Origin: a virus
Length of the DNA stretch: 53,904 nt
Direction: 5' to 3' (one strand)
IMG/VR virus record: IMGVR_UViG_3300034022_000969
Location: 1-53,904 of that record
Shown: in pieces, positions 9,281 to 34,924 of the stretch
Layout of the letters: each line of letters begins with the position of its first letter
Numbering within the stretch: the first letter of the stretch is position 1
Notes under the pieces: generated by a model
Database searches by the model: none
Told to the model about the DNA's origin: nothing
The model's input: only the letters and a program-made list of their open reading frames with translations
Made by a program: the position numbers and the translations under genes

Positions 9281-9940
9281 ATGCCGCACAACGAACAGTC
9301 ACACCTTGTTTCAAAGTTCGAACCATTGGTCACGAGAGACCAATACGGTAAACAATGGTTTCCGACAACTGGCCAGTTTGGACCAGAGACCGCCAATTCA
9401 ATGATGAGACGAATTCGGACGGGGGTGATCAGTCGATACCTGAACGGCGTGGGCTTGGACATTGGGTTTCGTGGCTCGATTCCCGACGCGCTGCCGTTCC
9501 CCGGTGCGATTGGGATCGAGCTTGATTACCCTGGCTACTACGGACGGACGCTGCCGTTTGCGGACGAGTCGCAGGATTTTGTGTACTCGTCCCATTGCCT
9601 CGAACACATTTCGGATGCTGGCAACGCGCTGCGTGACTATCATCGCGTCCTGAAAATTGGCGGTTTCATGCTGATCGCCGTGCCGCATAAGTACCTGTAC
9701 GAAAAGAAGTGGAATCTTCCTTCGAGGTACAATGGGGACCACAAGCGATTTTACACGCCAATGAAACTTATGGCCGAGATCGAGGATGCGTTGCAGCCGA
9801 ACAGCTACCGGCTGCGGCATCTGCAGGACTGCGACGATGGGTTCGATTATTCGATTGGGCCTGACCGGCACTCGTGCGGGGAGTACCAAGTCGAGTGTGT
9901 GATAGAGAAAATCAAGATGCCGAAATGGGGGTTGACATGA
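9281..9940 (+). CDS. SAM-dependent class I methyltransferase (Methyltransf_11 type)
   Basis: 219 residues from ATG 9281, 2 nt after the terminase stop. GVGLDIGFRG is the SAM-binding motif I, followed by GIELDYPG (acidic end of strand 2) and SHCLEHISDAGNAL (motif III region). RVLKIGGFMLIAVP is the typical strand-5 signature of methyltransferases acting on small molecules or sugars. It overlaps the next gene, a sugar kinase, by 4 nt (ATGA), so the pair is made together. This suggests a carbohydrate target rather than DNA. Confidence 0.8.
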   Translation: MPHNEQSHLVSKFEPLVTRDQYGKQWFPTTGQFGPETANSMMRRIRTGVISRYLNGVGLDIGFRGSIPDALPFPGAIGIELDYPGYYGRTLPFADESQDFVYSSHCLEHISDAGNALRDYHRVLKIGGFMLIAVPHKYLYEKKWNLPSRYNGDHKRFYTPMKLMAEIEDALQPNSYRLRHLQDCDDGFDYSIGPDRHSCGEYQVECVIEKIKMPKWGLT

Positions 9941-10797
9941 GGGAGATACGTCCGAAAATTGCGGTGATTGGCGACAAGATGGTCGACATTGATATTCACT
10001 GCACTTGCGAACGGATGTCACCAGAGGGGCCGTGGCCGGTGCTAAAAGTGCTTCACCATGAGCATCGTCCTGGCGGAGCTGGGAACGTTGCGGAAATGGT
10101 CAAGGCCTTGGGTTGTGATGTTTTGTTGTTGGGGGATGATGTTCCTCACGAAAAAACTCGGTATTACGTTGACGGAAAATTGACGGGACCGAGAATTGAC
10201 AGAGACTGGAACAGAAAAGCAGATAATTGCGACGTGAGAAAATGGGAGCAGTCCCTCAAGCAATTCAGGCCCGATGCCGTCATCGTCGCGGATCACGGCA
10301 AGGGTGTTGTGACCGATCAGGTGATGCGCATGATTCAAGATTACCCGTTATTCATTGATCCGATTGAGACGACTCCGATTTATGGAAGTTCGGTGAACGC
10401 TCTGGTTGGCAGCAAAAAGGAACTGCCAAAAACGATAGACGGATATTTGAATTCTCGGGATTTCAACGGAATCGTGGTTACGAAACTGGGTGCGTCGGGG
10501 ATGAAATGGAAACAATCTGCGGTCAGAACTGAGAAACACGTTCCGTCGACGGTCACAAACGCCGTGGATCCGCTCGGAGCAGGTGACCAGTTGATCGCGG
10601 GTTTGACCTGGGCTCGTTTGATGGGGAATAATTGGGACATATCAACTGAGTTGGCAAATGTCGCGGCGGGAATGCAATGTCTGCGGCGTGGTTGTGTCCC
10701 TGTCACGTTTGACGAATTGGCGAAAGAAATGTCGCTATCAATCAATCAGAACATCAAGCACTCGGATGAACTTCACGCTTCTGCCGCAGCCTGTTAG
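9937..10797 (+). CDS. PfkB-family sugar kinase resembling the kinase domain of HldE (heptose 7-phosphate kinase)
   Basis: 286 residues from ATG 9937. The N terminus follows HldE closely: IAVIGDKMVD, then RMSPEGPWPVLKV, then RPGGAGNVAEM (residues 44-54). DPLGAGDQLIAGL (about 211-223) is the PfkB signature containing the catalytic Asp. Host HldE has a second, nucleotidyltransferase domain that is absent here. HldE phosphorylates D-glycero-beta-D-manno-heptose 7-phosphate on the way to ADP-heptose. With the GT9-type transferase at 33450 this suggests a phage-encoded heptose-linked modification, although the exact sugar cannot be read from sequence. Confidence 0.78.
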   Translation: MREIRPKIAVIGDKMVDIDIHCTCERMSPEGPWPVLKVLHHEHRPGGAGNVAEMVKALGCDVLLLGDDVPHEKTRYYVDGKLTGPRIDRDWNRKADNCDVRKWEQSLKQFRPDAVIVADHGKGVVTDQVMRMIQDYPLFIDPIETTPIYGSSVNALVGSKKELPKTIDGYLNSRDFNGIVVTKLGASGMKWKQSAVRTEKHVPSTVTNAVDPLGAGDQLIAGLTWARLMGNNWDISTELANVAAGMQCLRRGCVPVTFDELAKEMSLSINQNIKHSDELHASAAAC

Positions 10798-10825
10798 AGT
10801 GTGAGCGGGCAAGTGATCAATTCAA

Positions 10826-10868
10826 CGGCTCGTCGGTCCAGATCGGATCGCCGGGCCGTGTTCGTTTT
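10826..10868 (+). promoter_or_regulatory. Leader hairpin of the CGGCTCG type
   Basis: CGGCTCG (10826-10832) pairs with CGGGCCG (10852-10858, one G-U) and is followed by TGTTCGTTTTGTGGGG, in which GGGG serves as ribosome-binding site for the GTG at 10882. The arm and its 5' flank (ATTCAACGGCTCG) repeat the element at 730. TTCACG-N17-TAGAGT just upstream may be a weak promoter. Confidence 0.6.
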
Positions 10869-10881
10869 GTGGGGAATCGAC

Positions 10882-11094
10882 GTGTCGCAACAAGCTGAAG
10901 TTGACCGCAAGCAGAAACTCGACGCGATCCTTATGCTGGAGAATCGTGTTGATCTGTTGCAGATGCGGGTTGATGCTCAGGCCGAGATCATTGCGGCGTA
11001 TCGGGACTGTATCGAGACGTTTCAAAACGAGAAACGATTACAGACTTCACTGCACTTGGCCGACTTAAAACAAATGACTTCGCCAAAATCGTGA
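10882..11094 (+). CDS. Small coiled-coil protein before the portal
   Basis: 70 residues from GTG 10882, with GGGGAA upstream. The sequence (DRKQKLDAILMLENRVDLLQ onward) is one long amphipathic helix. It lies between a leader hairpin and the portal gene in the structural operon. It may be a small scaffold or assembly factor; there is no recognised family. Confidence 0.6.
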   Translation: MSQQAEVDRKQKLDAILMLENRVDLLQMRVDAQAEIIAAYRDCIETFQNEKRLQTSLHLADLKQMTSPKS

Positions 11095-11107
11095 CCGGAG
11101 CTACGCC

Positions 11108-12604
11108 ATGCCATTACCACCGCGATTCGGCGAGTCGATCAGTCTTAACGCTGGCACGCACACGCAGGGTTTTGACTCGACCGCGCCCGCGAGCCCTGTT
11201 GCCATGTTTATGCAGGCACCTGGCAGTCGCTGGGGATCGGCTCAGGGGATGGCGTCGCTTAACGAGTGTACGAAGCACTACAATTACTGGAACTATGTCG
11301 GGATTCGCCCGATCGCGAACAAGTTTGCCCAGCTGATGCCGAACGTGGGGTATCCGGTGCCGTGCAAGAAGCATCATCAGCGAAGACTGTCACCGCGAGA
11401 TCATCGCTGGATCCGGCAGAGCTATGGGGCGACTGTGTTGCAGCATGACGGAATGGATCTGGAGACGGCTCCCGAGAATCACCCGCTGGTTCAGTTGTTT
11501 CAAGACATCAATCAGCAGGACGTGTGGCAGGAGTTTGCCTACGAGTGGATGATGTACTGGCAACTGTGCGGAAAGTCCTATTTGTGGGTGATTCCGAACG
11601 GGCTTGGGATGCCGTCTGAGGTGTATGTTCTGCCGAGTGACTGGGTCTGGCCGGTGTATTCCGCATCCGGAGAACTACATAAGTATCAAGTGATTCCGGT
11701 TGGGTATTCGGCGATTCGGATCGACCTGCCTCCCGAGGAAATCATTCAATGCAAATTCAAATCACCACGCTCGAAAATCGACGGGTGGGGCCCATTGCAG
11801 GCCGGACCGCTGTGGGTTGATAACGTCGAGGCGATCGAGAAGACTCGGAAAGCCACGTTTGACGGGGGCCCGGATGCCCGATTTATGTTCACCCTGCCAC
11901 AGGAATTCGGCGAGCCTGGCGGAGATGTGATCACGAGGATCAAGGAAAAGTTTCTTGCTCGCACGAACAACCTGCAGCGTGAACCGATGGTTGTGCCGTT
12001 CGGGATTACTGCGGTCAAAATGAGCCAGACACCGCAGGAGATGGATTTTGGAGCTTCCGGAACGATCACTCGTGACAATAATCTGGCACTGGTGGGGACT
12101 CCTGGAATCATTGCGGGTCTGGCTCACGAGTTCACCGAGGCGAACGCAGACGCATCAATGCTGGTGTTTTGCGAGAACACCATGAACCCGCTGTTTTCGC
12201 TCGCTGCGGGGATTCTGACCGAGCATTTGGCCAGCAAATACGACAAGCGACTGCGGGTGTGGTATCCCGATTGTCGGCCAGAGAATGCCGAATTCAAACT
12301 GAGGCAACTGCAGGCGGCGTCGGCCTTTGGTGGTGCGTCGCCGAACGATTGGCGGAAATACATGGGCTTCGAGATCAGCGAAGAATCGGCGTATCAAAGC
12401 GGGTATATGCCAGCCAATCTGGTTCCGCTCGTTTCTCCCGAGGATGCCGAGCCGGACGACGATTTGCCAGAGGATCCGACTGCCGAGGAAGCCGCAGCGG
12501 AAGCCGAAAAAGAGGCCTTGAAATCCGTGGCAGATGACAAAAAAGAGGCCTTGAAATCCGAAGCGGAAGCCAAGGCAGAGGACGCTCCCTCGCCGAAGGA
12601 GTGA
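11108..12604 (+). CDS. Portal protein (HK97-like)
   Basis: 498 residues. The region EIIQCKFKSPRSKIDGWGPLQAG is the conserved portal stretch that introduces the crown/stem domains. The sequence up to about 415 fits the dodecameric DNA channel at the capsid vertex. The last 70 residues are a low-complexity acidic tail with an internal repeat (KEALKSVADDK / KEALKSEAEAK). It follows the terminase and sugar genes and precedes the MuF-type protein, the usual order. Length is in the normal range once the tail is removed. Confidence 0.88.
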   Translation: MPLPPRFGESISLNAGTHTQGFDSTAPASPVAMFMQAPGSRWGSAQGMASLNECTKHYNYWNYVGIRPIANKFAQLMPNVGYPVPCKKHHQRRLSPRDHRWIRQSYGATVLQHDGMDLETAPENHPLVQLFQDINQQDVWQEFAYEWMMYWQLCGKSYLWVIPNGLGMPSEVYVLPSDWVWPVYSASGELHKYQVIPVGYSAIRIDLPPEEIIQCKFKSPRSKIDGWGPLQAGPLWVDNVEAIEKTRKATFDGGPDARFMFTLPQEFGEPGGDVITRIKEKFLARTNNLQREPMVVPFGITAVKMSQTPQEMDFGASGTITRDNNLALVGTPGIIAGLAHEFTEANADASMLVFCENTMNPLFSLAAGILTEHLASKYDKRLRVWYPDCRPENAEFKLRQLQAASAFGGASPNDWRKYMGFEISEESAYQSGYMPANLVPLVSPEDAEPDDDLPEDPTAEEAAAEAEKEALKSVADDKKEALKSEAEAKAEDAPSPKE

Positions 12605-12643
12605 CGTAATTGCGACGTAATTGCGACGTAATAGTGACGTAAT
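12603..12643. repeat. Four GACGTAAT repeats with an exact 11-bp period
   Basis: GACGTAAT occurs at 12603, 12614, 12625 and 12636 with spacer triplets TGC, TGC, AGT. The 11-bp period is close to one helical turn and is not a multiple of three, so it is not a coding repeat. It begins in the last codons of the portal gene and ends 17 nt before the next ATG. It may be a protein-binding array, for example a packaging or regulatory site. Confidence 0.7.
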
Positions 12644-12660
12644 CATAACGGTGACCGAGC

Positions 12661-13623
12661 ATGTCGAATAAATTCGCAATCTGGCCTGCTGCGGAGACGT
12701 TGGGGACCGTTGGGGCGGAATACGCGGTGGCGACTCAGCAACAGCCACAAATCATGATCTGGAAGCGTCGACAATCGGCAGACAGCGACAAGCGGGAACG
12801 GTTGCACAGCACGTTCCGACGGACTCATGCGAATCTTGAACGGCAGACGGTCGCGGCGCTGCGGCCAGTGTTTGGCGAGATGGCTGATCGGATCACCAAG
12901 CGATTCAACGATGCCGGGACGGTGGCTGTTCACGTTTTGGAGCTGTGGCACCAGGCGGAACTGGCGACTCCATTTAATGCGGCGATGCGTCCGTGTTGGT
13001 GGCGAATGGCGGAGGCGGGAATCCACTTCGAAGCGGATTGGGTCGGGACGGCAAGGCCTCAGTTTTATAGGCCTACGTTTACGCAGCAGGAGCTACCCTC
13101 GATCGACGTGGATCTGTCGGCGTTCCTGCAAAACTCGCTGCGGACGTGGATGAAAAACCGCATGGACGGCGTCTGGGCCGAGGTTTCCAAGACGATGCAT
13201 CTGCGGATTGATCGTTGTCTGCGTCGAGGCCTGCGGGATGGGTTGACGCTGAAAGAGATGGCGAAGGAATTACAGAAGACGCTGAAATCGCTTGAGGAAT
13301 ATCAGGCGGTTCGGATCGCTCGGACGGAAACGACCGGGGGAATGAATACCGGGGGCCAGTTGGAGCGCGTCGACCTTGGGATCGAGTACAAGGAGTGGAT
13401 TAGCACACTCGACAGCCGAACACGAGGTAACAAGGTCAAGGATCGCTTCGACCATATCAGCAGCAACGGCGAAGTCGTCGGCAACAAGGACGTGTTTGTC
13501 GTCAGTGCGCAAAAACTGATGTACCCTGCCGACGGTTCGCAGGGGGCGAGCGCGGGGAACATTTGTAATTGTCGCTGCTGTGCGGTAGGGGCTTGGCCGA
13601 AGTCTCCACTTTCGGTACGATAA
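12661..13623 (+). CDS. Phage head morphogenesis protein (MuF / SPP1 gp7 family)
   Basis: 320 residues. The C-terminal part carries the family pattern: IARTETTGGMNTGGQLERVD, then KEWISTLDSRTR and a final CNCRCCAVG. This minor head protein binds portal and is injected or needed for infectivity in relatives. The N-terminal 200 residues are helical with a Trp-rich stretch. It follows the portal directly, separated only by the 11-bp repeats. Confidence 0.85.
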   Translation: MSNKFAIWPAAETLGTVGAEYAVATQQQPQIMIWKRRQSADSDKRERLHSTFRRTHANLERQTVAALRPVFGEMADRITKRFNDAGTVAVHVLELWHQAELATPFNAAMRPCWWRMAEAGIHFEADWVGTARPQFYRPTFTQQELPSIDVDLSAFLQNSLRTWMKNRMDGVWAEVSKTMHLRIDRCLRRGLRDGLTLKEMAKELQKTLKSLEEYQAVRIARTETTGGMNTGGQLERVDLGIEYKEWISTLDSRTRGNKVKDRFDHISSNGEVVGNKDVFVVSAQKLMYPADGSQGASAGNICNCRCCAVGAWPKSPLSVR

Positions 13624-13656
13624 GCCCCGTGAGATTGCGCACGCGAAGGGCGACGT

Positions 13657-13938
13657 ATGCTGCGACTGTATGACCCGAACGGATTACCGCGACCTGATCT
13701 GGGACGGGTCATTACGTTTGATGCGGAATACCTGCTGAATGCCGATGGGGTTGTCGAATGCGAGTCCGACCCTGCCGAGGCTCTTGAGATCAACCAGATC
13801 TATGCAAAAGAGCGGCTCGACATTTCGAACGAGCATTTGGTCGAAGCGAGGCTGCGGCAGCTGTGTATTGCGATGCGTGGCACGTCGTACGAGGTGTTTA
13901 GCACGAAGCAGAAAGTCACCATGCCCCCCTTGTACTGA
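13657..13938 (+). CDS. Hypothetical protein of the structural block
   Basis: 93 residues starting MLRLYDPNGLPRPDLGRVIT, with GAAGGG about 8 nt upstream. The first half is beta-like, the second half helical (NEHLVEARLRQLCIAMRG). It ends just before a promoter at 13956, so it closes the portal transcript. No family is recognised. Confidence 0.6.
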   Translation: MLRLYDPNGLPRPDLGRVITFDAEYLLNADGVVECESDPAEALEINQIYAKERLDISNEHLVEARLRQLCIAMRGTSYEVFSTKQKVTMPPLY

Positions 13939-13955
13939 CTCAGACTGCATTCGCA

Positions 13956-13983
13956 TTGCGGAACCGACCTGAAACGATAAACT
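13956..13983 (+). promoter_or_regulatory. Promoter TTGCGG-N16-TAAACT
   Basis: TTGCGG (13956-13961), a 16-nt spacer and TAAACT (13978-13983). The promoter at 23886 has the same spacer length and the same -10 box, and that at 36259 is close. Transcription would begin at about 13990, so the hairpin at 14010 lies in the 5' leader. Confidence 0.6.
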
Positions 13984-14009
13984 ATTGACGTGGTTAGGAC
14001 ACACCGTTC

Positions 14010-14050
14010 AGCCCGCCCAAAGTTCGCTTTGTGCGGGCTATTTTCGTTTT
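14010..14050 (+). promoter_or_regulatory. Leader hairpin with TTCG loop
   Basis: AGCCCGC (14010-14016) pairs with GCGGGCT (14033-14039), with an inner AAAG-TTCG-CTTT. It is followed by ATTTTCGTTTT and AAGGGG, the ribosome-binding site of the gene at 14064. Same layout as the other leader elements. Confidence 0.65.
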
Positions 14051-14063
14051 AAGGGGTCTCAAA

Positions 14064-14297
14064 ATGCCGATTTTCTCCGTCACTCATACGATCCGTGGCA
14101 CCACCCAGGTCAATCGTTGCCGCATTGATGTGACCACCGATCCCGTGGCCGCTGCGGACGAGCTGAAGAGATCGCTGGCGGAAACGTTTTCGGTTCAACC
14201 GAACGAAGTCATGATCGTCAGCATTGATGGTGATGATCCGGAAGCGGCCTTCAAAAAGCCAAAACAAAAGGCTGACAAAGTCCCCGCGTCCGCATGA
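14064..14297 (+). CDS. Small hypothetical protein, first gene of the fibre transcript
   Basis: 77 residues starting MPIFSVTHTIRGTTQVNRC, with AAGGGG upstream of ATG 14064. The body has a beta-alpha-beta feel (RIDVTTDPVAAADELKRSLA), and the tail is Lys-rich. First product of the promoter at 13956. No family is recognised. Confidence 0.6.
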   Translation: MPIFSVTHTIRGTTQVNRCRIDVTTDPVAAADELKRSLAETFSVQPNEVMIVSIDGDDPEAAFKKPKQKADKVPASA

Positions 14298-14357
14298 TCG
14301 GGTCAACGTCAGAACGAGTCGTGGAAAAATCATCTCAAAGCCGGTGGAATCAAGTGA

Positions 14358-16178
14358 ATGAGTGCAACGTTACTACCTCCGGCGCTGATGAACGGCGTGC
14401 TCGTGTTCGGCCCTACTTCATCTGTGGGGACGGCGGGCCAGGTGCTGAAGGGGGATGGAGCGGGGGGAACCTCGTTCGGTTGGGTCGCGTATTCCGAATT
14501 GACCGGATTGCCGTCTCTGGGGTCGGCAGCATTCCAGAACACGTCGGCCTTTATGCAGCCAAGCAACAATTTGAGCGACTTGATCTCGTCTTCTACGGCC
14601 AGAATCAATCTGGGGCTCGGGACGGCTGCGGTTCAAAACTCGGGAACGTTTTTGCAAACAGCCAACAATCTTTCCGATGTGGTGGCAGCAACTGCGAGGA
14701 CAAACCTTGGTCTCGTTGCTAGTGCCACGACTGATACGACCAATGCCAGCAATATCACCACTGGGACGCTGAATGCAGCGAGGTTGCCAGCGGTCTATGC
14801 TCCGATCGCGTCCCCAGGATTGACCGGAACTCCAACGGCACCAACTGCGACGGTTGGCACAAATACAACACAACTCGCCACAACGGAATTTGTGCAGTCA
14901 GCATTACCTGCGGTGCCCGTGTCAAGCGTGGCTGGCAAGACCGGTGCGGTGACGCTAGTTGAGGCGGATATCTCTGGTCTGGTGAGTAACTTGGCCTTGA
15001 AGGCGGCGTTGGCTTCACCAGCGTTCACGGGGACGCCAACGGCACCAACGGCCACTGCCGGGACGAACACTACGCAGCTGGCCACGACTGCGTTTGTGCA
15101 GGAGGCGTTAGGCGGTGGTTCTAGCGCAGGCTTTCCAACCATATTTTATTTTGGGGATGGCTCGGACGGAGCGGTCACGATTAGCAGCGGCACTACGACA
15201 CTGACCCGCGATATGTTTTATTCCTCATTGACGATTTCGGGTACCGGTCAGCTGAACACGGCGGGGTTTCGCGTTTTCGTGAACGGAATTCTCGATCTTT
15301 CCAGCGCCGGGGCCGGTGCGATTGTGGCCAACGGCGGCAATGGCGGAAATGGATCGGCGACAGGGACGGCGGGGACCACAGCAGTTGCTGGACCGAATGG
15401 ATATACGTTGACAAACACCGCCCAAAATGCTGCCGGCGCTGGAACGACAACGGTGGGGGCCGCTGCTGGAGCGTCAGGCGTGGCGTTACCAGTTCTCGGC
15501 GGTGGTACCGCCGCTGGTGGAACTGGCGGTACCGGGACGAGCGGAAACACGGGAGGCGCTGGGACCGTGGCGGCAACGCCAGCTGGGTTCAACTCGTTTC
15601 GACGATTCACAACGGATTTTCCTCGACCGACAGTCAACTCTGGTTTTGCCATACACCTTGCGACCGTGCGCACGTCAAGCGGGGGTGGTGGTGGAGGTGA
15701 TGGCACCGTTGCTGGTGGAGGCGGTGGGGCGTCTGGAGGCGGCGGCGGCTGTATTTGGATTAGCGCTGCAACAATCGCACGTGGCACAAATTCGACGGCT
15801 GCAATCATCCAATGCAAAGGCGGGAACGGCGGCAACGGCGGATCACCGGCCAGCGGTAACGCATCCGGTGGGGGCGGTGGAGCTGGCGGCCCTGGAGGAT
15901 TCGCCTACATTTGTTTCGGCAGTGTCACCGGATCGAGTATCCCTGCTGCAGTCGACGTGAGTGGCGGACCAGGTGGCGACGGGGGGACAGGTCGCGGCAC
16001 TGCATTGCTGGCTGCCCGTGGCGGGGGATCTGGCGGATCTGGACGATTTACGCTGATCAATTTGACTGCCGGGACCAGTGTCGAGATTGTGCCGATCGCG
16101 GGTACGTCTGGTGGCGTAGGATCGGGTCTGACAGGCGGAGCGGGGGCAGCGGCCACAGTCTCACAGGGGGAACTATGA
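14358..16178 (+). CDS. Tail fibre / receptor-binding protein with Gly-rich tip
   Basis: 606 residues. The N-terminal half has repeats typical of phage fibres: two copies of NNLSD...ARTNLGL-like segments (about 70-115) and two near-identical copies of the TGTPTAPTA...TNTTQLATTxFVQ type (about 150-255). The C-terminal half is extremely Gly-rich, with runs such as GGNGGNGS and SGGGGGGDG between short hydrophobic strands. It resembles the polyglycine adhesin tips of some T4-like phages. Its place between the MuF-type protein and the protease is unusual, since fibres normally follow the tape measure. Confidence 0.75.
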   Translation: MSATLLPPALMNGVLVFGPTSSVGTAGQVLKGDGAGGTSFGWVAYSELTGLPSLGSAAFQNTSAFMQPSNNLSDLISSSTARINLGLGTAAVQNSGTFLQTANNLSDVVAATARTNLGLVASATTDTTNASNITTGTLNAARLPAVYAPIASPGLTGTPTAPTATVGTNTTQLATTEFVQSALPAVPVSSVAGKTGAVTLVEADISGLVSNLALKAALASPAFTGTPTAPTATAGTNTTQLATTAFVQEALGGGSSAGFPTIFYFGDGSDGAVTISSGTTTLTRDMFYSSLTISGTGQLNTAGFRVFVNGILDLSSAGAGAIVANGGNGGNGSATGTAGTTAVAGPNGYTLTNTAQNAAGAGTTTVGAAAGASGVALPVLGGGTAAGGTGGTGTSGNTGGAGTVAATPAGFNSFRRFTTDFPRPTVNSGFAIHLATVRTSSGGGGGGDGTVAGGGGGASGGGGGCIWISAATIARGTNSTAAIIQCKGGNGGNGGSPASGNASGGGGGAGGPGGFAYICFGSVTGSSIPAAVDVSGGPGGDGGTGRGTALLAARGGGSGGSGRFTLINLTAGTSVEIVPIAGTSGGVGSGLTGGAGAAATVSQGEL

Positions 16179-16570
16179 TTGATCGATTCGGCAGAACGAT
16201 TTCCGTTCTTTCAAATTCGGACGGATCAAAGCTTTACTCGACCGGTGGGATATCACTGAAAAGCTGGTCTGGTGATGCTGTTGCCTTGCAAGCGCTGAAT
16301 GGAATGGCTCCAGACGGGTTCGTGGAACCGGTTTTAGGTATGTTTTTTGCCCCGTATGATTTTTTGTATTTGTTCACGGATTCCGAAAAGACCCAGATAT
16401 TGTCGTCGACGGATGCGATCGTCAAAAACGCAATCGTGGAACTGACAGCAATCATCACCTACGTGGATTTGTGGAACGAGCAGACGATTGGATTTGTTCG
16501 ATACTTGCAATCAATTGGGATTTTGACAGCAACTCGTGCAACCAGCATTTTGGCTGGGGTCAGACCATAA
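16175..16570 (+). CDS. Hypothetical protein coupled to the fibre gene
   Basis: 131 residues from ATG 16175, overlapping the fibre stop by 4 nt. The centre is hydrophobic but not clearly membrane-spanning (FVEPVLGMFFAPYDFLYLF), and two amphipathic helices follow. Tight coupling to the fibre gene suggests a fibre assembly chaperone or accessory protein, but no family is recognised. Confidence 0.55.
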   Translation: MIDRFGRTISVLSNSDGSKLYSTGGISLKSWSGDAVALQALNGMAPDGFVEPVLGMFFAPYDFLYLFTDSEKTQILSSTDAIVKNAIVELTAIITYVDLWNEQTIGFVRYLQSIGILTATRATSILAGVRP

Positions 16571-16585
16571 GGCGGAAAGTCAGCA

Positions 16586-17353
16586 ATGCCAGTCAATAAA
16601 ACAATCCGGCTCCGGTACCCGCAGGTGAGCGTCGGCAACCTGACAGTGAACGTGTTGTCGTTGGACGGTGCGACGGCGATTCAAAACGCGGTGGCACTGA
16701 CCGACGCCAATGCCAACGGGACTTACACGGGGACGGTGACGGGAGTGGTCTCGGGGACGTTGGCAACGTATTCCGCGAACGTCTATCGCGGCGGTGTGTT
16801 GATCGGTCCCAATGTCATTGATCTGATCGAGACGGTCGGAGTCTACGAGATTGTCGGCCCTCCATCGGTCCTGCAAATCACCGCAAACATCAGCGGTGGA
16901 GGAGGTGGTACGACGGTGATTCAGAATAACATCACCGTACCGGGACCGGTCGCGACAGCGTCACAAACTCCTATGGCGTTGGCTTGCAATCGCGGCGACA
17001 CGTTTCGACGGCAAGTGTTGGTCACATGCGGGAGCGTCTCGGCCCGAACAAAAGCTTGGTTCACAATCAAACGAAAACTCAGCGATCCAGATTCGGCGGC
17101 AGTCCTGCAGATCGTCGAGGGGACTGGCATCGTCGTGCAGAACGGTGCGACTCCCCCAAATGCGAGCAAGGGGTCGCTGGTGATCGACAACACGACCGGG
17201 TATCCGACGATCTACATTGATGAGTCGGTTACGGCATTGTTTGCAATCGCGAACGGTGCCTGGGACGTGCAAATTCTTTTGAGCGGCGACACGTCAACGC
17301 CGTTGAGCGGGTATTTCAGCGTCACGGCGGACGCAACGCGATCGATTATTTAG
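16586..17353 (+). CDS. Ig-like virion/baseplate protein
   Basis: 255 residues. The N-terminal domain (1-95) has the strands of an Ig-like fold (VGNLTVNVLSLDGATA, NGTYTGTVTGVV). A Gly-rich linker and a short helix follow. The C-terminal domain (about 130-255) has WFTIKRKLSDPDSAAVLQI and a closing GYFSVTADATRSI, the pattern of small beta-sandwich phage proteins related to BppU N-terminal domains. It is probably a structural part of the fibre or capsid. Confidence 0.55.
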   Translation: MPVNKTIRLRYPQVSVGNLTVNVLSLDGATAIQNAVALTDANANGTYTGTVTGVVSGTLATYSANVYRGGVLIGPNVIDLIETVGVYEIVGPPSVLQITANISGGGGGTTVIQNNITVPGPVATASQTPMALACNRGDTFRRQVLVTCGSVSARTKAWFTIKRKLSDPDSAAVLQIVEGTGIVVQNGATPPNASKGSLVIDNTTGYPTIYIDESVTALFAIANGAWDVQILLSGDTSTPLSGYFSVTADATRSII

Positions 17354-17362
17354 GAGCAGATG

Positions 17363-18914: not shown

Positions 18915-18940
18915 CCAGCACTGAGCAAGTGGATTTCCAA

Positions 18941-18980: not shown

Positions 18981-19034
18981 GAGCTACCCGACAACGGACG
19001 GCTCTTTCAAACACCCGTTTGGGAGACCGTTACC

Positions 19035-25890: not shown

Positions 25891-25895
25891 ACCAA

Positions 25896-26285: not shown

Positions 26286-26333
26286 TCGACTATCATGACA
26301 ACGTCCTTGCTTGGGGACAAAAGAGATTTGAAA

Positions 26334-26370
26334 ACGCCACCGGGATTCCGCCCCTGGTGGCGTTTTTTGT
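26334..26370 (+). terminator. Strong intrinsic terminator
   Basis: ACGCCACC (26334-26341) pairs with GGTGGCGT (26356-26363), extended by GGG/CCC inside the loop, and runs into TTTTTTGTTTT. It is the clearest rho-independent terminator of the window and ends the tail tube transcript. Confidence 0.8.
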
Positions 26371-26514
26371 TTTCTAAGACGCTGATGCCTCTTGTTTCTC
26401 AATCCACCGCTGCAAGCCAGTCACTGGTCCGTCTCTTGACGTGCTGGAAAGGTCCTGTTCATGATGACTGCGCGAAATTCGCGGTTTCAATTCACGAACA
26501 AGGATGAAAGTCAG

Positions 26515-26991: not shown

Positions 26992-26999
26992 ACAGGTCT

Positions 27000-27027
27000 T
27001 TGAATCGTGTTTGATCACGGTTATCCT
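27000..27027 (+). promoter_or_regulatory. Promoter TTGAAT-N16-TATCCT
   Basis: TTGAAT (27000-27005), 16-nt spacer and TATCCT (27022-27027), the same spacer length as the promoters at 13956, 23886 and 36259. It lies just upstream of the tape measure leader hairpin. Confidence 0.5.
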
Positions 27028-27053
27028 GTGATCTGAGTCAATGGAACAACCAA

Positions 27054-27097
27054 CAGCTCGCAACCCCACACAACTGGGGCGGCGAGCTGCTTTCGTT
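27054..27097 (+). promoter_or_regulatory. Leader hairpin before the tape measure gene
   Basis: CAGCTCGC (27054-27061) pairs with GCGAGCTG (27082-27089), and CCCCA (27064-27068) with TGGGG (27075-27079), giving a long two-part stem. CTTTCGTTTGTGGAG follows, with GGAG as ribosome-binding site. Both arms are identical to the capsid leader at 18941. Confidence 0.7.
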
Positions 27098-27109
27098 TGT
27101 GGAGTTAAC

Positions 27110-30064
27110 ATGGCAGGCACGATCGCCGATCTTGTCGCGAAGATTACCGGAAACATCTCGGGATTCCGGCAAGCCATGTCCGACGGTGCGAACGCAACGG
27201 ACGGATTCGCCAAGGCTTGGACCAAGGCCGGTTCCGATGTGGCGACGGCGGCCAGTCGGATCTCGATCGGCGTCGGCACAATGGTCGGGGCGGTGGTCGG
27301 CTACACGGCCAAGATGGGCATTGCATTCAATACGATGAAGGAGGACGCGCTCGCCGACTTCACGGTGATGCTGCAATCCGCAGTCAAAGCCAAGGAGATG
27401 CTGGCTGACATTCAGGATTTCGCGGCGAAGACTCCGCTGGAAACGTCCGATATCACCGGGGCAGCCAAGACGTTGCTACAGTTCGGGGTCGCGGGTGATT
27501 CCATTTTGCCGATGCTGAAGCGGCTCGGGGATGCCAGCGGCGGAAACTCGGAACGATTCAAGGCCATGTCCCTGGCATTCGGCCAGATGAGTTCCACGGG
27601 TCATTTGATGGGGCAGGATCTCCTGCAGATGATCAACGCCGGTTTCAACCCGCTGAACGAGGTGGCCAAGCGAACTGGCGAGTCAATGGACGCGCTCAAA
27701 GAGCGAATGTCGAAAGGCAAGGTCTCGACGGCGGAAGTGACGCAGGCCTTCATCGATGCCACGTCCGAAGGGGGAATGTTTTTTAATCTGATGGACATCA
27801 AGTCCCGCACGATGACCGGTCTTTGGTCGACAATGGTCGACAACATGAAGATCAATGCGGGCAAGATCTTCGAGCCGTTTTCGGGTGGCTTGAAGCGGAT
27901 GATGGATGACGTTGGCGGGTCTCTGGATGGCGGAGCGGCGACAACAACAGTGTTCCGTCTTCAGCAGGCGGTCGAAGGGATCGTTGTCGAGCTCGAAAAG
28001 CTGGCAAGCCAAAACGGTGCTGGGATCATCGAGAGTTTGGCGGACGGATTTGTGTGGCTGGCAGAAAGCACGGCGAAGTTCACCAAGTATCTTGCCGAGC
28101 AAGGTCCGGCACTGATGCAAACGGCATCTGGTTGGATGGCAATGCTTAAGCCGATCATGCAGTTCGTGGCCGATCATCCCCAGGTTCTTGCGGCACTGAT
28201 CGCGCTGAAAGTCGGAGGGATGCTCGGGCTGAATCAGGCGGCAGTGTCACTGGCGGCGGCAATATGGCAAACGATTCCATCATTTTCCACCATGACGACA
28301 GCAGTTGGGGGAACAACGGGTGCGTTGAAGCTGCTGTCGGGGCTGGGAACGGTTGCGTTAATCGCGGCGGTGGCGGTGGTGGCTCACCAGGCCGCGACCG
28401 AGATGTCTGGCTGGGGAGAAGAGACGCGCAAGGCTGCGGCGGAAATGAAAAAGGCCACCGACCAGGCCAAAGAGCTCGACACACTGCGAGGTGATCAGAA
28501 GCTGGAGGAACAGCGGAGAAAGCAGGAAGATGTTGACCGCGAATCCGATCCCGATAAAAAGAAAATGATTCTGCGGGGCCAGTTGGGCAAAGCGGAGCAA
28601 GAGGCTCAAGGCAAGGGGGCGTCAGCGAAGGGAGCAGCAAAGAACGCGGATGAACTGGAATCGCAGTGGGGTGGCTCGTTGTCAAAAGTGGCTCAGGTCG
28701 CCAGAGAGGAAGCAAAGACAGCGGCACAAGAGGCCTTGGACGCGGCTCGGGAAGTGGATAGGATCAAACGCGAAATCCAGCGACTTGACCGAGACGCAGC
28801 TGCGCAACAACTGAGTGCTGCCAATGCCGCAAAAAAAACCGATGGCCAAGTCGTTCCCGTCACGGTCGGCAGCGTGTCGGTCGCTGTCAGTCCGAAGGAA
28901 CAGGCGGCTGCCGACAAACAGGCCATGAAGGACGAAGCCAAAAAGCAGGACACCGCCGACGACAAGGTGGCACAGTTCCAAGAAAAATTGCGGGACCTGC
29001 AAGGCTCGGTTCCGAACGACCAGCTGCAACAATTCGCGGACCTGTTTGGCCAACTGCGGAAAGAATTTCTCGACGGCCAGATTGATGCTGACCAATACCG
29101 CGACTCGCTCAAATTTCTCGACAACCGCATGCGAGACGCGAGCCAGATTGGGACGCAGTCAAAAAGCCTGTCCGATCAGACCCAGAGCGGGGCGGAACGC
29201 CTCGACACGTATTCGTTCGGTAGCGGTTCGCGGGATGGGGTCGGTGATAGTGTTCTGGCCGGTGCGAATGCCAAATACGATGCCATTGAGCAGGCGGGGG
29301 CGCAACTGGCGGAATCGTTCAAGTCCGGCCAGATCTCCGCCACAATGTACGCTCTGGAAATCGGCCGGCTGAAAAAGGCGACTGACGATGTGACTGAGGC
29401 AGCCATCAGGGAGGAGCAGCAAAAGCGACGTGAAGCCTTGATGAAGGGGGATTTCAAGGGAGCGGGGCTCGATTTTAATCAGTCGGTTCAGCAAAAGATG
29501 CAAGAACGCATGGCCGACCAGCAGATGAGGATTTTCGACAACGCGGTGAATGGAGTCGTCAATCAGTTTTTGCCGCTCGAAGACGTGCTGCAAACCGTGA
29601 ACGATGGCTTTGAGTCGCTCGACAAGGGGTTGGCGTCAGCCTCGCAAAACATTGGTGGCATGGGGAAGGGTGGCGGCAACGATTCCCAAGCCGCAGCCAA
29701 CTTCGCCAACTGGATGAATTCGATCGCGGGACGCATCGCGAACATGCAGAACGAGATATCCTTTCACCAGCAGGCACTGACCGTGCTGACCGATCCGACG
29801 AAACGGCAGGAAGAGATCAACGCCATCGTCAATCTGACGAACCAAATCAGCAAGCTAAGCAGTAGTGTTAGCACCTTCAGCGGGTACAAATCGAACGACC
29901 CGATTTTCAAAGACCCTGGGATCACCGGGGGCGGAAGTCAGTCGTCGGTCACGATTAACCAGCACATTCCGAACGTGCAGAATTTTTCCCAGTCCGATGT
30001 TGACCACTTGGCCAATTCCGTCGCAAATGCCCTGAACCGTCAGGGCCATCGCGCGTTTGCCTGA
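27110..30064 (+). CDS. Tail tape measure protein
   Basis: 984 residues from ATG 27110. The N-terminal part has the typical tape-measure domain (KITGNISGFRQAMSDGANAT, AKTPLETSDITGAAKTLLQF, GQDLLQMINAGFNPLNEVAK). The centre holds a hydrophobic stretch (about 380-450). The rest is long coiled coil rich in Lys, Glu, Ala and Gln. By the rule of about 1.5 angstrom per residue the tail would be about 150 nm, a normal siphovirus length. Not split or frameshifted. Confidence 0.9.
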   Translation: MAGTIADLVAKITGNISGFRQAMSDGANATDGFAKAWTKAGSDVATAASRISIGVGTMVGAVVGYTAKMGIAFNTMKEDALADFTVMLQSAVKAKEMLADIQDFAAKTPLETSDITGAAKTLLQFGVAGDSILPMLKRLGDASGGNSERFKAMSLAFGQMSSTGHLMGQDLLQMINAGFNPLNEVAKRTGESMDALKERMSKGKVSTAEVTQAFIDATSEGGMFFNLMDIKSRTMTGLWSTMVDNMKINAGKIFEPFSGGLKRMMDDVGGSLDGGAATTTVFRLQQAVEGIVVELEKLASQNGAGIIESLADGFVWLAESTAKFTKYLAEQGPALMQTASGWMAMLKPIMQFVADHPQVLAALIALKVGGMLGLNQAAVSLAAAIWQTIPSFSTMTTAVGGTTGALKLLSGLGTVALIAAVAVVAHQAATEMSGWGEETRKAAAEMKKATDQAKELDTLRGDQKLEEQRRKQEDVDRESDPDKKKMILRGQLGKAEQEAQGKGASAKGAAKNADELESQWGGSLSKVAQVAREEAKTAAQEALDAAREVDRIKREIQRLDRDAAAQQLSAANAAKKTDGQVVPVTVGSVSVAVSPKEQAAADKQAMKDEAKKQDTADDKVAQFQEKLRDLQGSVPNDQLQQFADLFGQLRKEFLDGQIDADQYRDSLKFLDNRMRDASQIGTQSKSLSDQTQSGAERLDTYSFGSGSRDGVGDSVLAGANAKYDAIEQAGAQLAESFKSGQISATMYALEIGRLKKATDDVTEAAIREEQQKRREALMKGDFKGAGLDFNQSVQQKMQERMADQQMRIFDNAVNGVVNQFLPLEDVLQTVNDGFESLDKGLASASQNIGGMGKGGGNDSQAAANFANWMNSIAGRIANMQNEISFHQQALTVLTDPTKRQEEINAIVNLTNQISKLSSSVSTFSGYKSNDPIFKDPGITGGGSQSSVTINQHIPNVQNFSQSDVDHLANSVANALNRQGHRAFA

Positions 30065-30076
30065 TCCGAGAACCAA

Positions 30077-33000
30077 ATGGCCAGATCGCTGACTACTGCC
30101 GCTGCCACGCAAGCCGCTCTCAACACGGGAGCGTTTCCACGTCGCGTTCTCGAAGTCAATTACGGGGGCAGCACGGGGACTAAGTATTACTCGGACGACA
30201 CGTTTACGATTGGCGGGTTTACCACCGATCCTCGCGTGAAAAACTGGGGCACCATGGTCACCGCAGCCGACCCAAACAAAATGGGTGGCAACAGCCAGCT
30301 GACAATCGAGCTGTCCGATTCAGACCACGCTCTGAAAAACATTTGGGACGTGTCGCCGGGGGTGCAAGCGAGGCTCTGCCGACTGTGGCTGTGGTTCGAG
30401 GGGACTGCATGGTCAGACGCGGTCAACCTGTTCGCCGGTGTGATCTCAAACCCGGTCACGTTTACCGAAGCGACCGGGACGTGGAAGTGTACGCTCAAGG
30501 GGATCGAGCTATCCCTAGACCGCAACCTCGGCACTACGTTGACACGGGACCAGTTCAGCGACGTGCAGTGCTCGGACTGCGAAGGAACGCAGATCCCAAT
30601 CGTTTACGGGAATCCCTGCATTCGTGTGGAATGCTGTGCGATCGACAAGCCGGGCTGGGCATGGATGACTGGTCGGCTTGGAATTCATGATGCAACGTTG
30701 TCAATCAATATGGGGGCTCTGGCGGCAGGGTTTACGGTTGGCGTTCCGATTACGCTGATTGTTGGTGAGCAGGGGTCTTGGGAGGAAATCACCGGGATCT
30801 TTCCCAGCCCTACGTCGACGGTGTTCACCATTTATAGCCGTGGTGCGATTCAGGCGTATGGATTTTCTCCTGGCGTTTCCTCGAGCGGTGGATTCTTTTA
30901 TTTCCTAATCAACAGAATCGACATTGATAACCCCGACACGGCACGAACTGGTTATCCGATCTGGACTAAGCACAGTGGCAGTTCGACCTGGCGGCAACAG
31001 ATGGTCGACAACTGGTTTCAGGCCGGGACTGCGCAGGGGGTCGCACTGCAGCCGACCGATTATACGTTTGCAACTGGCGACCAGTGGAAAATCGGCTCGT
31101 ATGCAGGGGTGATTCCGCTGTTTCCCGTGGGAACTCCCGTTCGCGAGTCAGCTCCCTGGACATTTGTGGCAAATATCCTGCCGTCGAAATCGGTGATCCG
31201 GGTCGAGGCCAAAACGACTGTGCAAGATGCGATCCGCGGTGGCACGATGGTCCAGTATCTGACCTATACCAACGATGCCAGCGTTTACACGGTCAACCTG
31301 AACAACCAATCTTTCAATTCGCAGATGGGTCGAGGCTCATCCGATCCCGGCCTGACAACAATCACGATCCAAAAGCCGCCGACGTATTTCAACTTTGAAG
31401 ATTCTCATCTTTATGTCACGCTGCAAGGGTGTGTCGACAACAACAACCCGTCGACAGGAACGGTCCTCGAAAATCCGAGCGATGTCATCGGGCACATGCT
31501 GACCAGCATCTCGCTGGGAAATATCAATACGAGCTACATTGACGCGACCTCGTTTGCTGCCACGAAAACGACGTTGGCGGCGATCCCGATTCGAATGGCG
31601 TTTGCGATCAACAGCGTGAAGAAATTGCATCAGGCGGTGAGCGAATTGGCGTTTCAAGCGATGTGCCTGTACTACTGGGACCAGGGCAAAGCGTTTCTCG
31701 TGTCGCTGGTCACACCGCCAACGGGCACCAGTGTGCTGACGGTCAGCCCGAGCAACTATCGCAACAAGTCGCTGCAGCTCGATCAGTTCGACGTGCGAGA
31801 AATCACCACCGAATTATCGGCGACGTTTCGCATGAGTCAGTCCAGCCCGCAAATCACGATCAAACGAGTTCAGCCCGCAGCTGTGGCAGCCTACAACAAT
31901 CGGCAAGATACGATTGACCTATGGGCGTTTCAACTCCCCAGCAACGTGGCGCTGATCACGGAGTTTTGGCTGGCGTATCGGCTAAATCGGCAACGCTCGG
32001 TCAGGTTTGACCTGTTTTTGCATGCTCTCAAGCTTCAGCCAGGCGACACGATCACGGTCAACGCGACCGATGGAAACAGCGGAACATTGATGAGCAGTCA
32101 GAAAGCTCGAGTGCAATCGATCTCGCATCAGGCAGCGGACGGTCGACGGCAGCTCATGGAAAAGATGACAGTCACCGCTGAATACACGCTGTGGCCGTGG
32201 ACAGTGACCGGCGTGATTTCGCCGCTGCGGGACTGTACGGCTGCGATTGGCTCACCAAGTCCCGTTGGGCAAGATGGGTATTTGTCGGTAAATACCGGAC
32301 AAGGGACCGGATCGGGAAGCGGGTCTGGATCTGGAAGTGGATCTAGTTCGGGGAGCGGTTCGGGGAGTGGGAGCGGATCAGGATCGTCGAATTGTCTTGG
32401 GTTTGCGACGTTAATGATGTCTGGGTGGCCAACAGACGCGACGTATGGCCCTAATTTTTCAAATTTAAATGGATCATTTTGTTTATCGCAACCGAGCTAC
32501 CCTGGTCCTGGTTCATTTGCGGGCACGATTTATGATGGGGCGGTTTTGAAGTGGACACTGTTTGCTCAAGCAACAAGTTCTTCTTCGTTGAGGGTCGTAA
32601 TCGCATCAGGAAGCGGCAGTCCGCTATACATGTTTGAGTACGGTAATCGATCGGTCACGTCAACGACTTGCAACGCAACCGTTACAGCATCAAATTTTAC
32701 GTTCAATAGTCCGTTTGCCCCGCCAAGTTCCGTGTCCATAAAGTGGCTGACATCAAGTTGTTCTGGCAGCGGCAGCGGCAGCGGCAGCGGTTCTGGCTCC
32801 GGTTCCGGCTCGGGAAGTGGTAGCGGATCTGGGTCTGGGTCGGGGTCCGGCAGCGGTTCAGGATCTGGCAGCGGCAGCGGGTCAGGCAGTGGCACAGGAG
32901 GATCGGTGAACCTTACAGGAGCAGGCAGTTGGACGGTCCCAGCTGGCGTGACGGTCATTGCCATCACGGGGCAAGCAGCAGGAGGTGGTGGCGGAGCTGG

Positions 33001-33475
33001 GGATTCTGGCGGACCGTTTGCCATGAACCAAGGGGGGGCGGGTGGCGGACAGGGCGGGAAATTTGTGCATTCTTCGTTGGCGGTCACACCGGGTCAGACA
33101 TTCTCCTATTCCGTGGGAACGAGCGGGGCCGGTGCGCCGAACACAACTTGTGCCAGTGGCTCGACAGGGGGCAACACAACGTTTGGAGGGCTAATCGCAT
33201 ACGGTGGAACTGGCGGTGGAAGTTGCAACGGAACAGGGTCGACGCAAGGCCTTGGAGGATCGGCGGGTGGCGGGCAAACCAATACGACCGGAAATAATGG
33301 ATCGGCGGGTGGCGGATCTAACTCAGGCGGTTCTGGCGGTGGCGGTGCGAGTGGTGGCGCTTCGGGGGCAAACGGGGCAAACGCGACTGCGGGGACTGGT
33401 GGCGGAGGCGGCGGCGGCGGCAAAAATGGAAACGGGGGAGCTGGTGACAATGGATCACTTACCGTCAGTTGGTGA
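30077..33475 (+). CDS. Large tail tip/hub protein with Ser-Gly repeats and Gly-rich C terminus
   Basis: 1132 residues, directly after the tape measure, where distal tail and hub proteins are found. Residues 1 to about 735 form the tail-tip body, including a Cys cluster at about 168-193 (CSDCEGTQIPIVYGNPCI). Two long Ser-Gly dipeptide repeats follow at about 741-772 and 895-940. Between them is a beta domain. The last 190 residues are a Gly-rich adhesin-like domain (SWTVPAGVTVIAITGQAAGG onward) resembling the tip of the fibre at 14358. The repeats use mixed synonymous codons, so selection acts on the protein. The neighbouring GT9 gene makes Ser-linked glycosylation a tempting hypothesis. Confidence 0.75.
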   Translation: MARSLTTAAATQAALNTGAFPRRVLEVNYGGSTGTKYYSDDTFTIGGFTTDPRVKNWGTMVTAADPNKMGGNSQLTIELSDSDHALKNIWDVSPGVQARLCRLWLWFEGTAWSDAVNLFAGVISNPVTFTEATGTWKCTLKGIELSLDRNLGTTLTRDQFSDVQCSDCEGTQIPIVYGNPCIRVECCAIDKPGWAWMTGRLGIHDATLSINMGALAAGFTVGVPITLIVGEQGSWEEITGIFPSPTSTVFTIYSRGAIQAYGFSPGVSSSGGFFYFLINRIDIDNPDTARTGYPIWTKHSGSSTWRQQMVDNWFQAGTAQGVALQPTDYTFATGDQWKIGSYAGVIPLFPVGTPVRESAPWTFVANILPSKSVIRVEAKTTVQDAIRGGTMVQYLTYTNDASVYTVNLNNQSFNSQMGRGSSDPGLTTITIQKPPTYFNFEDSHLYVTLQGCVDNNNPSTGTVLENPSDVIGHMLTSISLGNINTSYIDATSFAATKTTLAAIPIRMAFAINSVKKLHQAVSELAFQAMCLYYWDQGKAFLVSLVTPPTGTSVLTVSPSNYRNKSLQLDQFDVREITTELSATFRMSQSSPQITIKRVQPAAVAAYNNRQDTIDLWAFQLPSNVALITEFWLAYRLNRQRSVRFDLFLHALKLQPGDTITVNATDGNSGTLMSSQKARVQSISHQAADGRRQLMEKMTVTAEYTLWPWTVTGVISPLRDCTAAIGSPSPVGQDGYLSVNTGQGTGSGSGSGSGSGSSSGSGSGSGSGSGSSNCLGFATLMMSGWPTDATYGPNFSNLNGSFCLSQPSYPGPGSFAGTIYDGAVLKWTLFAQATSSSSLRVVIASGSGSPLYMFEYGNRSVTSTTCNATVTASNFTFNSPFAPPSSVSIKWLTSSCSGSGSGSGSGSGSGSGSGSGSGSGSGSGSGSGSGSGSGSGSGSGTGGSVNLTGAGSWTVPAGVTVIAITGQAAGGGGGAGDSGGPFAMNQGGAGGGQGGKFVHSSLAVTPGQTFSYSVGTSGAGAPNTTCASGSTGGNTTFGGLIAYGGTGGGSCNGTGSTQGLGGSAGGGQTNTTGNNGSAGGGSNSGGSGGGGASGGASGANGANATAGTGGGGGGGGKNGNGGAGDNGSLTVSW

Positions 33476-34313
33476 CGTTTTGAAGATTGACCTCGCAACG
33501 CCGGGGCTGTTTTGCGCCGGACTTGGCGACTGCGTCACTTGGGCGTGGATTGCTGCGGGGTCGACTCGTCCACTGCAATTTTTTGCGAGAGGCAGCAACG
33601 CGGAGATGCTGCGGCTGTTCGGCTGCGATGTCACCGAGGACAATACTGACGCGATCGATCCTTCATTCGGATATCGAGCGGAAACCAACACCGGCTGTAA
33701 GATCCCGCGTGTCGAGATCTGGAAAAAGGTCTTGCAAATCGGCGGGACGGTGACGAGGCCCAGCTGCACGCGTAACCCAATCCGCAATCCAAATCCTCGT
33801 CGGATCATGTTGGCCCCGCACTGTAATTTCGTGTCGCGAACATGGCCTGCGGCGTACTGGCTCGATCTGAACTGGTCGCTATTGCACGCAGGCTACGAGG
33901 TGGTCTGGTTGATGGCACACAACGACCAAACCTACGTCAATCGCGGTCCTTCGATGGCATTCTGGGGGAACGGTTTCAGCACGGTTATCGATCTGATGAT
34001 GACTTGCGAACTGGTTGTCGGGAACGACTCGATGCCGGCGCATCTGGCCGGAACGCTCGGGCTTCCCGTCCTGGCGTTGATGGGTCCGACAAGCCCGAAC
34101 GTGTTTGCTCACATTCCCAACGTCGTAGCGATGCAATCCGATGCCGTAAAATGTGTCGGCTGTCACTTTGGGGCACCGTATCGAGCCGGTTGTGGTCTTG
34201 GTTGCCAGTCCCTGTTTACTCTGTTGCCACAAAATATCATGGCGGAAATCGAACAACGTGTTTCGATTCAAAAGCCAACTTTACGATTCCTCAAATTGGA
34301 AACGAACGAATGA
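33450..34313 (+). CDS. Glycosyltransferase family 9, heptosyltransferase-like
   Basis: 287 residues from ATG 33450 (GGGGGAG upstream), starting inside the 3' end of the tail protein gene in another frame. VVGNDSMPAHLAGTLGLPVL and ALMGPTSP (about 189-216) are the donor-binding signature of ADP-heptose transferases. The C-terminal Cys set (CVGC, then CGLGC) is common in the family. The length is slightly short for GT9. It is followed, with a 4-nt overlap, by an FkbM methyltransferase. The acceptor may be a virion protein or the host surface glycan; sequence does not decide. Confidence 0.82.
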   Translation: MDHLPSVGDVLKIDLATPGLFCAGLGDCVTWAWIAAGSTRPLQFFARGSNAEMLRLFGCDVTEDNTDAIDPSFGYRAETNTGCKIPRVEIWKKVLQIGGTVTRPSCTRNPIRNPNPRRIMLAPHCNFVSRTWPAAYWLDLNWSLLHAGYEVVWLMAHNDQTYVNRGPSMAFWGNGFSTVIDLMMTCELVVGNDSMPAHLAGTLGLPVLALMGPTSPNVFAHIPNVVAMQSDAVKCVGCHFGAPYRAGCGLGCQSLFTLLPQNIMAEIEQRVSIQKPTLRFLKLETNE

Positions 34314-34924
34314 ACGGGCCTTGGAACGAAGATCATCTTGCCGCGTATTTGCCGGACCGAGCCAGAACGGCCGTGATCGTTGGTGCGAACGAAGGACAAT
34401 GGGTCAAGCGATGCTCGCCGTTGTTCGACCGGGTTGTCGCGATCGAGCCAGACGCAGCAAACGTGGCCATGCTGATCGATCTGAACTTGCATAACGTCAG
34501 CATCGTCGCGGCGGCGGCATGGATGACCGAGGGGCACACGTTACCGTTTCACGTGCGAGATCATCAGCCCATGTCGGGAGCTTTGGCAGCCCGCGACATA
34601 AGACGAAACGACGAGGTCAGCCGCACGATCGAGATGAATCTGGTAACGATCGACAGTTTAAATCTTGTGGACTGCGATTTTCTGATTGTCGATACCGAGG
34701 GTGCCGAACTGGACGTAATGCGGGGAGCAACGCAAACAATCGAGCGATGCAAGCCGGATCTGATTATTGAATGTCACGAGATCGAAAACCGAATCTGGTT
34801 GGCCAGCTGGCTGGAGCGGTGCGGGTATAACCTGGCTCACATTCACGATCCGGCTCGCGAAATGAACGACGAATGGCAGAGGTTCGTTCACCTCGTTTGT
34901 CATCATTACCGACCGAGGGATTGA
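34310..34924 (+). CDS. FkbM-family methyltransferase
   Basis: 204 residues, ATGA overlap with the GT9 gene. AVIVGANEGQWVKRC is the SAM-binding loop, VVAIEPDAANVAML the second motif, and FLIVDTEGAELDVMRGA the family hallmark. FkbM enzymes O-methylate sugars or small molecules. Coupled to a glycosyltransferase, it probably caps the transferred sugar. Confidence 0.85.
   Translation: MNGPWNEDHLAAYLPDRARTAVIVGANEGQWVKRCSPLFDRVVAIEPDAANVAMLIDLNLHNVSIVAAAAWMTEGHTLPFHVRDHQPMSGALAARDIRRNDEVSRTIEMNLVTIDSLNLVDCDFLIVDTEGAELDVMRGATQTIERCKPDLIIECHEIENRIWLASWLERCGYNLAHIHDPAREMNDEWQRFVHLVCHHYRPRD

Follow-up and report, generated by a model that had tools for sequence, protein, structure and literature searches.

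A temperate phage that probably infects Planctomycetota carries two pairs of overlapping genes, namely a methyltransferase with an HldE-like PfkB kinase (9281-10797) and a GT9 glycosyltransferase with an FkbM-family methyltransferase (33450-34924). Unrelated phages also have a gene for this kind of sugar transfer where their tail genes end, and it is therefore probable that a modified heptose-like sugar is attached by the phage to its own particle or to the surface of its host. Both pairs, and the start of the second one within the 3' end of a tail gene, had been described in an earlier note on this DNA and are borne out by profile matches and gene overlaps. The same note also linked the sugar genes to long Ser-Gly tracts in the tail protein; that these tracts are the specific target of the sugar is not supported by the comparison with related loci.

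The window, i.e. the whole stretch of DNA that was analyzed, is the record IMGVR_UViG_3300034022_000969 with a length of 53,904 bases. Its first and last 80 bases (1-80 and 53825-53904) are identical, and it therefore looks like a closed, complete phage genome of 53.8 kb. The presence of virion genes (terminase, portal, Mu F-like, capsid and tape-measure) together with a tyrosine integrase identifies it as a temperate tailed phage. The C-terminus of the integrase is related to 68 genome loci, nearly all of them from Planctomycetota, which suggests that this phylum is probably the host. Scans of IMG/VR using the major capsid protein, the tail protein, the first methyltransferase, the GT9 and the kinase as single queries returned no relatives, and the portal gave no match when scanned against genomes. 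The terminase search yielded 30 loci sharing almost nothing with the window beyond terL, and GT9 and PfkB were absent from all 18 terL-relative records tested.

Several other features lie outside the two pairs. A tRNA-Met (CAT) gene near the integrase (40651-40726) might be an attachment site or a cargo tRNA. A Dcm-like C5 DNA methyltransferase (46782-48416) scores below the cut-off, a Dam-like adenine methyltransferase (49753-50688) was judged by eye, and part of 52089-53261 matches TIGR04471, the model of radical SAM mobile pair protein A, with an E of 2e-13 that does not reach the cut-off.

Table 1. Position of the two gene pairs, the tail gene with its Ser-Gly tracts and the integrase in the window.
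Feature	Positions	Strand	Evidence
Class I SAM methyltransferase	9281..9940	+	Methyltransf_11 E 3e-10; start ATG 9281
PfkB sugar kinase, free-standing, HldE-domain-I-like	9937..10797	+	PF00294 E 5e-17
Tail protein with Ser-Gly tracts and Gly-rich C-terminal domain	30077..33475	+	Phage-tail_3 E 3e-4 (just below cut-off); Gly_rich_2 E 2e-3
Ser-Gly tract 1, 27 residues, alternation imperfect	32309..32389	+	Translation and codons
Ser-Gly tract 2, 44 residues, (SG)22, pure alternation	32762..32893	+	Translation and codons; shuffle test
GT9 (heptosyltransferase-like) glycosyltransferase	33450..34313	+	PF01075 E 2e-13
FkbM-family methyltransferase	34310..34924	+	PF05050 E 8e-18; TIGR01444 E 1e-20
Integrase (tyrosine)	38349-39497		

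The methyltransferase of the first pair comes directly 3' of the terminase gene and overlaps the kinase gene as ATGA. The top NCBIfam match of the kinase is TIGR02198 (HldE domain I, E 1e-32), with 113.6 bits where the equivalog cut-off is 345; the best non-HldE PfkB family reaches 36 bits, roughly a third of the score of HldE domain I. The closest solved chain is the heptose-7-phosphate kinase 4e84 (E 2e-11), and the PfkB motifs are present as RPGGAGNVA and DPLGAGD (pattern GGAxNVA; GAGD). The designation HldE-like therefore holds for domain I, by a wide margin, but does not extend to the C-terminal adenylyltransferase domain of HldE, which is absent from the kinase gene; a motif of this domain was found in none of the six frames of the window, which also lacks GmhA. 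The AlphaFold model of the kinase, made from the sequence alone, is poor (pLDDT 32). Relatives in described phages belong mostly to cyanophages, with a few uncultured marine viruses, and a search of 348 planctomycete genomes at E 1e-48 gave a single prophage, G641, whose HldE is 31% identical to the kinase.

The tail gene preceding the second pair lies directly 3' of the tape measure gene (TMP_3, 27041-30064). The ATG of the GT9 gene is located 26 bases inside this tail gene and is preceded by AACGGGGGAGCTGGTGACAATG, which contains a plausible ribosome-binding site; the GT9 and FkbM genes again overlap as ATGA. Coupling is thus seen within each pair but not between the pairs, which are separated by 22.7 kb, and the term coupled is to be read in this sense only.

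The GT9 protein exceeds the curated cut-off of PF01075 (50.8 against 22 bits), whereas it stays below that of the heptosyltransferase II model (39 against 134.6 bits). It is 287 aa long with a short N-lobe, has a GLGD motif at residues 24-27 and a four-Cys finger of the form CxxC-x9-C-x3-C. The GxGD loop and an N.S...H motif of the C-lobe are invariant in a five-sequence alignment. The Asp of GxGD is the presumed catalytic residue, by analogy to Asp13 of WaaC. A second analogue is D110 of TibC (PMC4358343). The closest solved relatives are the LPS enzymes WaaF and WaaC. An AlphaFold model based on three sequences is poor (pLDDT 45), and a Foldseek search with it listed WaaF, the GT9 structure 3tov and WaaC, TibC being ranked lower; this list is consistent with the GT9 family, is no proof of it, and leaves heptosyltransferases acting on LPS and those acting on proteins undistinguished.

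No relative of the window GT9 was found among INPHARED phages. A two-sequence GT9 profile recovered L225 from IMG/VR (34% identity), and profile searches of Planctomycetota genomes identified the prophages G116, G276 and G641 as well as GT9 domains within long fusions in G542 and G695. All phage-type GT9s have GxGD and nearly all the four-Cys finger. Close GT9s are also encoded as orphan copies on chromosomes (G542:C15 and G462), which shows that members of the family can occur away from phages and tail genes. In the GT9 tree, whose deep forks are weakly supported, the phage-type copies together with two orphans and the long-branch cellular G186 are set apart from the other cellular GT9s.

Some of these proteins have additional parts. 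In L298:648-3914 (G695), L297:8974-11871 and L299:8132-10663 (G542), one or two GT9 domains are fused to GT2 or Mannosyl_trans3, apparently forming multi-step glycan-building proteins; the genes next to the fusions of L298 and L299 are phage-like. The phage-type GT9 proteins of L296, L297, L299 and L243 are extended at the N-terminus by a Cys-rich stretch with CxxC clusters.

The position of the GT9 gene recurs in the related loci. In L225, tail genes are followed by a 783-aa GT9-methyltransferase fusion, the start of which lies within the 3' end of the gene before it. Prophage G116 shows a tape measure gene and a distal tail gene, then, co-oriented, a (GS)15 tail protein, one further tail-region gene and the GT9; in G276 the order is tape measure, tail genes and GT9. 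In G641 the tape measure gene is followed, again co-oriented, by two tail genes, a Mannosyl_trans3-GT9-TylF fusion and, directly 3' of this GT9-methyltransferase fusion, a complete HldE with both kinase and adenylyltransferase domains. At a further locus, G022, the GT9 is preceded by an amidase-like gene and lies some 10 kb away from the SG gene. The tail genes of these relatives are so called for their position after a tape-measure-like gene and their sequence character, and two of them that were checked by profile gave no match. The GT9 is the only match that G116 and G276 have to the window, and L225 adds merely two marginal short ones. As these relatives share almost nothing but the GT9 with the window, the cassette occupies the same kind of place in different tail operons, and it is chiefly from this recurrence that we take the GT9 to act together with the tail.

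The C-terminal third of the L225 fusion looks sulfotransferase-like by eye, which Pfam does not confirm. The window itself has a phosphoadenosine phosphosulfate reductase-like gene (6178-6900; phrog_2302, E 1e-17), which is perhaps relevant in view of that end of the fusion.

Taken together, G641 and the tail-operon contexts suggest that the HldE-type kinase and the GT9 belong to one pathway. HldE and GT9 stand side by side in one prophage, G641 being the sole result of the kinase search, so that their adjacency rests on this case and on the analogy to cyanophages. A cellular HldE-like kinase was found in five of five planctomycete genomes tested (G116, G276, G542, G695 and G641), and the supply of a donor is therefore plausible. 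It is however conceivable, if rather improbable, that kinase and GT9 serve an ADP- or NDP-sugar other than ADP-heptose. Such a donor would account for the scores of both enzymes relative to their cut-offs (113 against 345 bits and 39 against 134.6 bits), for the lack of an adenylyltransferase motif in the window and for the GT2 and Mannosyl_trans3 domains in related cassettes; the threefold lead of HldE domain I over the best other PfkB family and the complete HldE adjoining the GT9 in G641 argue against it.

The heptose pathway put forward in the earlier note is thus supported by the family of the kinase, the HldE beside the GT9 fusion in G641, the gene clusters of cyanophages and the recurrent adjacency to tail genes. 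We tentatively propose, at somewhat less than an even chance, a phage-borne glycan-modification module that is expressed together with the virion genes and places a methyl-capped heptose on the distal tail protein. As to its substrates and order of reactions, the PfkB kinase would phosphorylate D-glycero-D-manno-heptose 7-phosphate or a closely related compound, thereby enlarging the ADP-heptose pool of the host, which would itself supply the GmhA and HldE adenylyltransferase steps. The short GT9 would then move the sugar from ADP-heptose onto an acceptor made late, and FkbM, perhaps along with the first methyltransferase, would add an O-methyl cap. With the GT9 gene starting inside the tail gene and GT9s of this type ending unrelated tail operons, the distal tail protein of the phage itself would be the likeliest acceptor, and the role of the modification might be protection of the virion or altered adsorption. 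Against this module count the score of the kinase, which lies far below the TIGR02198 cut-off and allows for another sugar, the poor structure models, the 22.7 kb between the pairs, the single prophage with HldE beside GT9, the orphan chromosomal GT9s and the place of the GT9 in G022.

The sugar might instead be added to the host: at a late stage of infection or during lysogeny, the GT9 would attach a heptose, methylated or not, or another ADP-sugar to LPS or another surface glycan, blocking superinfection or re-adsorption to debris. Prophage glycosyltransferases that change the host surface are common, GT9 enzymes work in the cytoplasm and require no flippase, the solved proteins closest to the GT9, WaaF and WaaC, are LPS enzymes, and an integrase marks the phage as temperate. 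The genes are however found among those of the tail, one of which they overlap, and not beside the integrase, and the adjacency of GT9 and tail genes recurs in unrelated phages. Judging from gene position, the tail is the more likely acceptor, and we consider modification of the host surface somewhat unlikely.

The two long Ser-Gly tracts of the tail protein, with their mixed synonymous codons, are indeed present as the earlier note described them. The longest SG run comprises 44 residues, compared with 6 in 2000 shuffles of the tail protein. In the tracts Ser is encoded by both codon families (TCN and AGY) and Gly by all four codons, and adjacent SG hexamers are identical in 3 of 21 cases (1.1 expected). 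As the codons are mixed, a fresh DNA slippage repeat was rejected as the origin, and the tract appears to be kept at the level of the protein.

Whether the tracts are also the substrate of the GT9 can be judged from related loci. Long SG tracts occur at three of about nine phage-type GT9 loci (the window, G116 and G022), an association for which no statistical significance is claimed, the window itself having been chosen for the pairing. G022 is not independent either, because it was found through its SG tract, while the G116 locus was recovered through its GT9 alone and yet has a long-SG tail-region protein upstream of the GT9. No long SG tract was found in G641, G276, L225 or the fusions of G542 and G695. 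The earlier note had itself named related phages with the same genes but without Ser-Gly tracts as evidence to the contrary, and G641 is such a phage; the tracts are also missing from G276 and L225, which have the GT9 alone or with a methyltransferase.

Conversely, such repeats are found apart from the enzyme and are common among proteins of Planctomycetota. A nine-repeat Gly-(Ser/Thr/other) pattern had matches in 81 of 392 Planctomycetota genomes, no GT9 was located near an SG-type repeat at the eight Planctomycetota loci inspected, and one of 35 IMG/VR records selected for such repeats contained a GT9. Four Planctomycetota genomes (G109, G213, G335 and G442; L277-L280) have secreted-looking cellular proteins with codon-mixed C-terminal (SG)n tails and no GT9 nearby.

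It seems fairly probable that the tracts are mere flexible linkers within the tail protein and have nothing to do with the sugar genes, a view that is compatible with the other readings. It agrees with the absence of long tracts from G641, G276 and L225, with the Planctomycetota proteins that have tracts and no GT9 near them, with a lysin-like protein in a terL relative in which an SG tract connects two parts, and with similar tracts in filamentous-phage-like proteins of the IMG/VR scan. The long-SG tail-region proteins with a downstream GT9 in G116 and G022 speak against it. The tract may be a substrate, but the comparison gives this role no preference over that of a linker, and we regard as quite improbable the more specific proposal of a recurrent module in which a four-Cys GT9 puts a methylated, ADP-heptose-derived sugar on Ser of the tail tip, with kinase or HldE supplied by the phage and (SG)22 as the acceptor.

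Protein heptosyltransferases of the TibC/AAH type (BAHT) are GT9-type enzymes that use ADP-heptose and whose C-lobe bears a finger of four Cys; these are residues 339, 342, 358 and 370 in TibC, which also has a beta-barrel at its N-terminus (residues 1-97) and a thumb (PMC4358343). In the window GT9, GLGD is already reached at residues 24-27, leaving no room for a barrel, the spacing of its four Cys is unlike that of TibC, and several cellular GT9s also have four Cys. No BAHT model was among its NCBIfam matches at E 0.01, nor TibC among its PDB sequence matches at E 10. Membership in the BAHT family was not accepted.

As far as searched, no described phage has the full gene set of the window, as the earlier note had stated, although parts of it are already known. 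The cyanophages P-SSM2 (Prochlorococcus) and Sf-FS3 (Synechococcus), both large T4-like phages, likewise encode a free-standing HldE-type PfkB kinase, 26-33% identical to that of the window. The sugar genes of P-SSM2 lie near tail-fibre-like genes, comparable to the tail-linked GT9 of the window, and the kinase cluster of Sf-FS3 is found before the neck genes. Unlike the window, the cyanophage cluster also includes a nucleotidyltransferase, a phosphoheptose isomerase, a carbamoyltransferase and an epimerase, and no GT9 is annotated in the stretches examined. For contig 252 of a cave-pool phage, glycosyltransferases and an HldE-type gene are reported, in the part of that account considered here without a described link to tail genes or GT9 (PMC11671562).

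A pair annotated as GT9 and methyltransferase is known from the Pseudomonas prophages D14C, D14O and D14Q (PMC10449497). Pseudomonas phage P7869 has such a pair (annotated 'glycosyltransferase family 9') in its virion block, as does the window, and the methyltransferases of these Pseudomonas phages share about 50% identity with that of the GT9 fusion in L225. Unlike the window GT9, however, the P7869 glycosyltransferase matches neither the phage GT9 profile nor Pfam, and in the stretch around its pair no HldE kinase is annotated and no SG tract was found.

Tail operons that are unrelated to one another contain the GT9-methyltransferase cassette, be it alone, as a fusion or together with HldE, so that the question of its acceptor can be tested on few genes, and this in phages of Planctomycetota, which have been little studied. 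Few phages are known to glycosylate their virions, and a version using heptose would join the chemistry of the LPS core to phage particles. The mycobacteriophages Che8, Corndog and Myrna are reported to encode glycosyltransferases that act on proteins of their capsid and tail tube (PMC12363180). These phages and their hosts are different ones, no heptose kinase is mentioned for them, and their virion glycosylation is experimentally shown, whereas in the window it is suggested by the genes. As expected of phage virion glycosylation systems, a phage-encoded glycosyltransferase is linked to virion genes in the window, where the GT9 gene overlaps the tail gene, and this link to tail genes recurs in the related phages.
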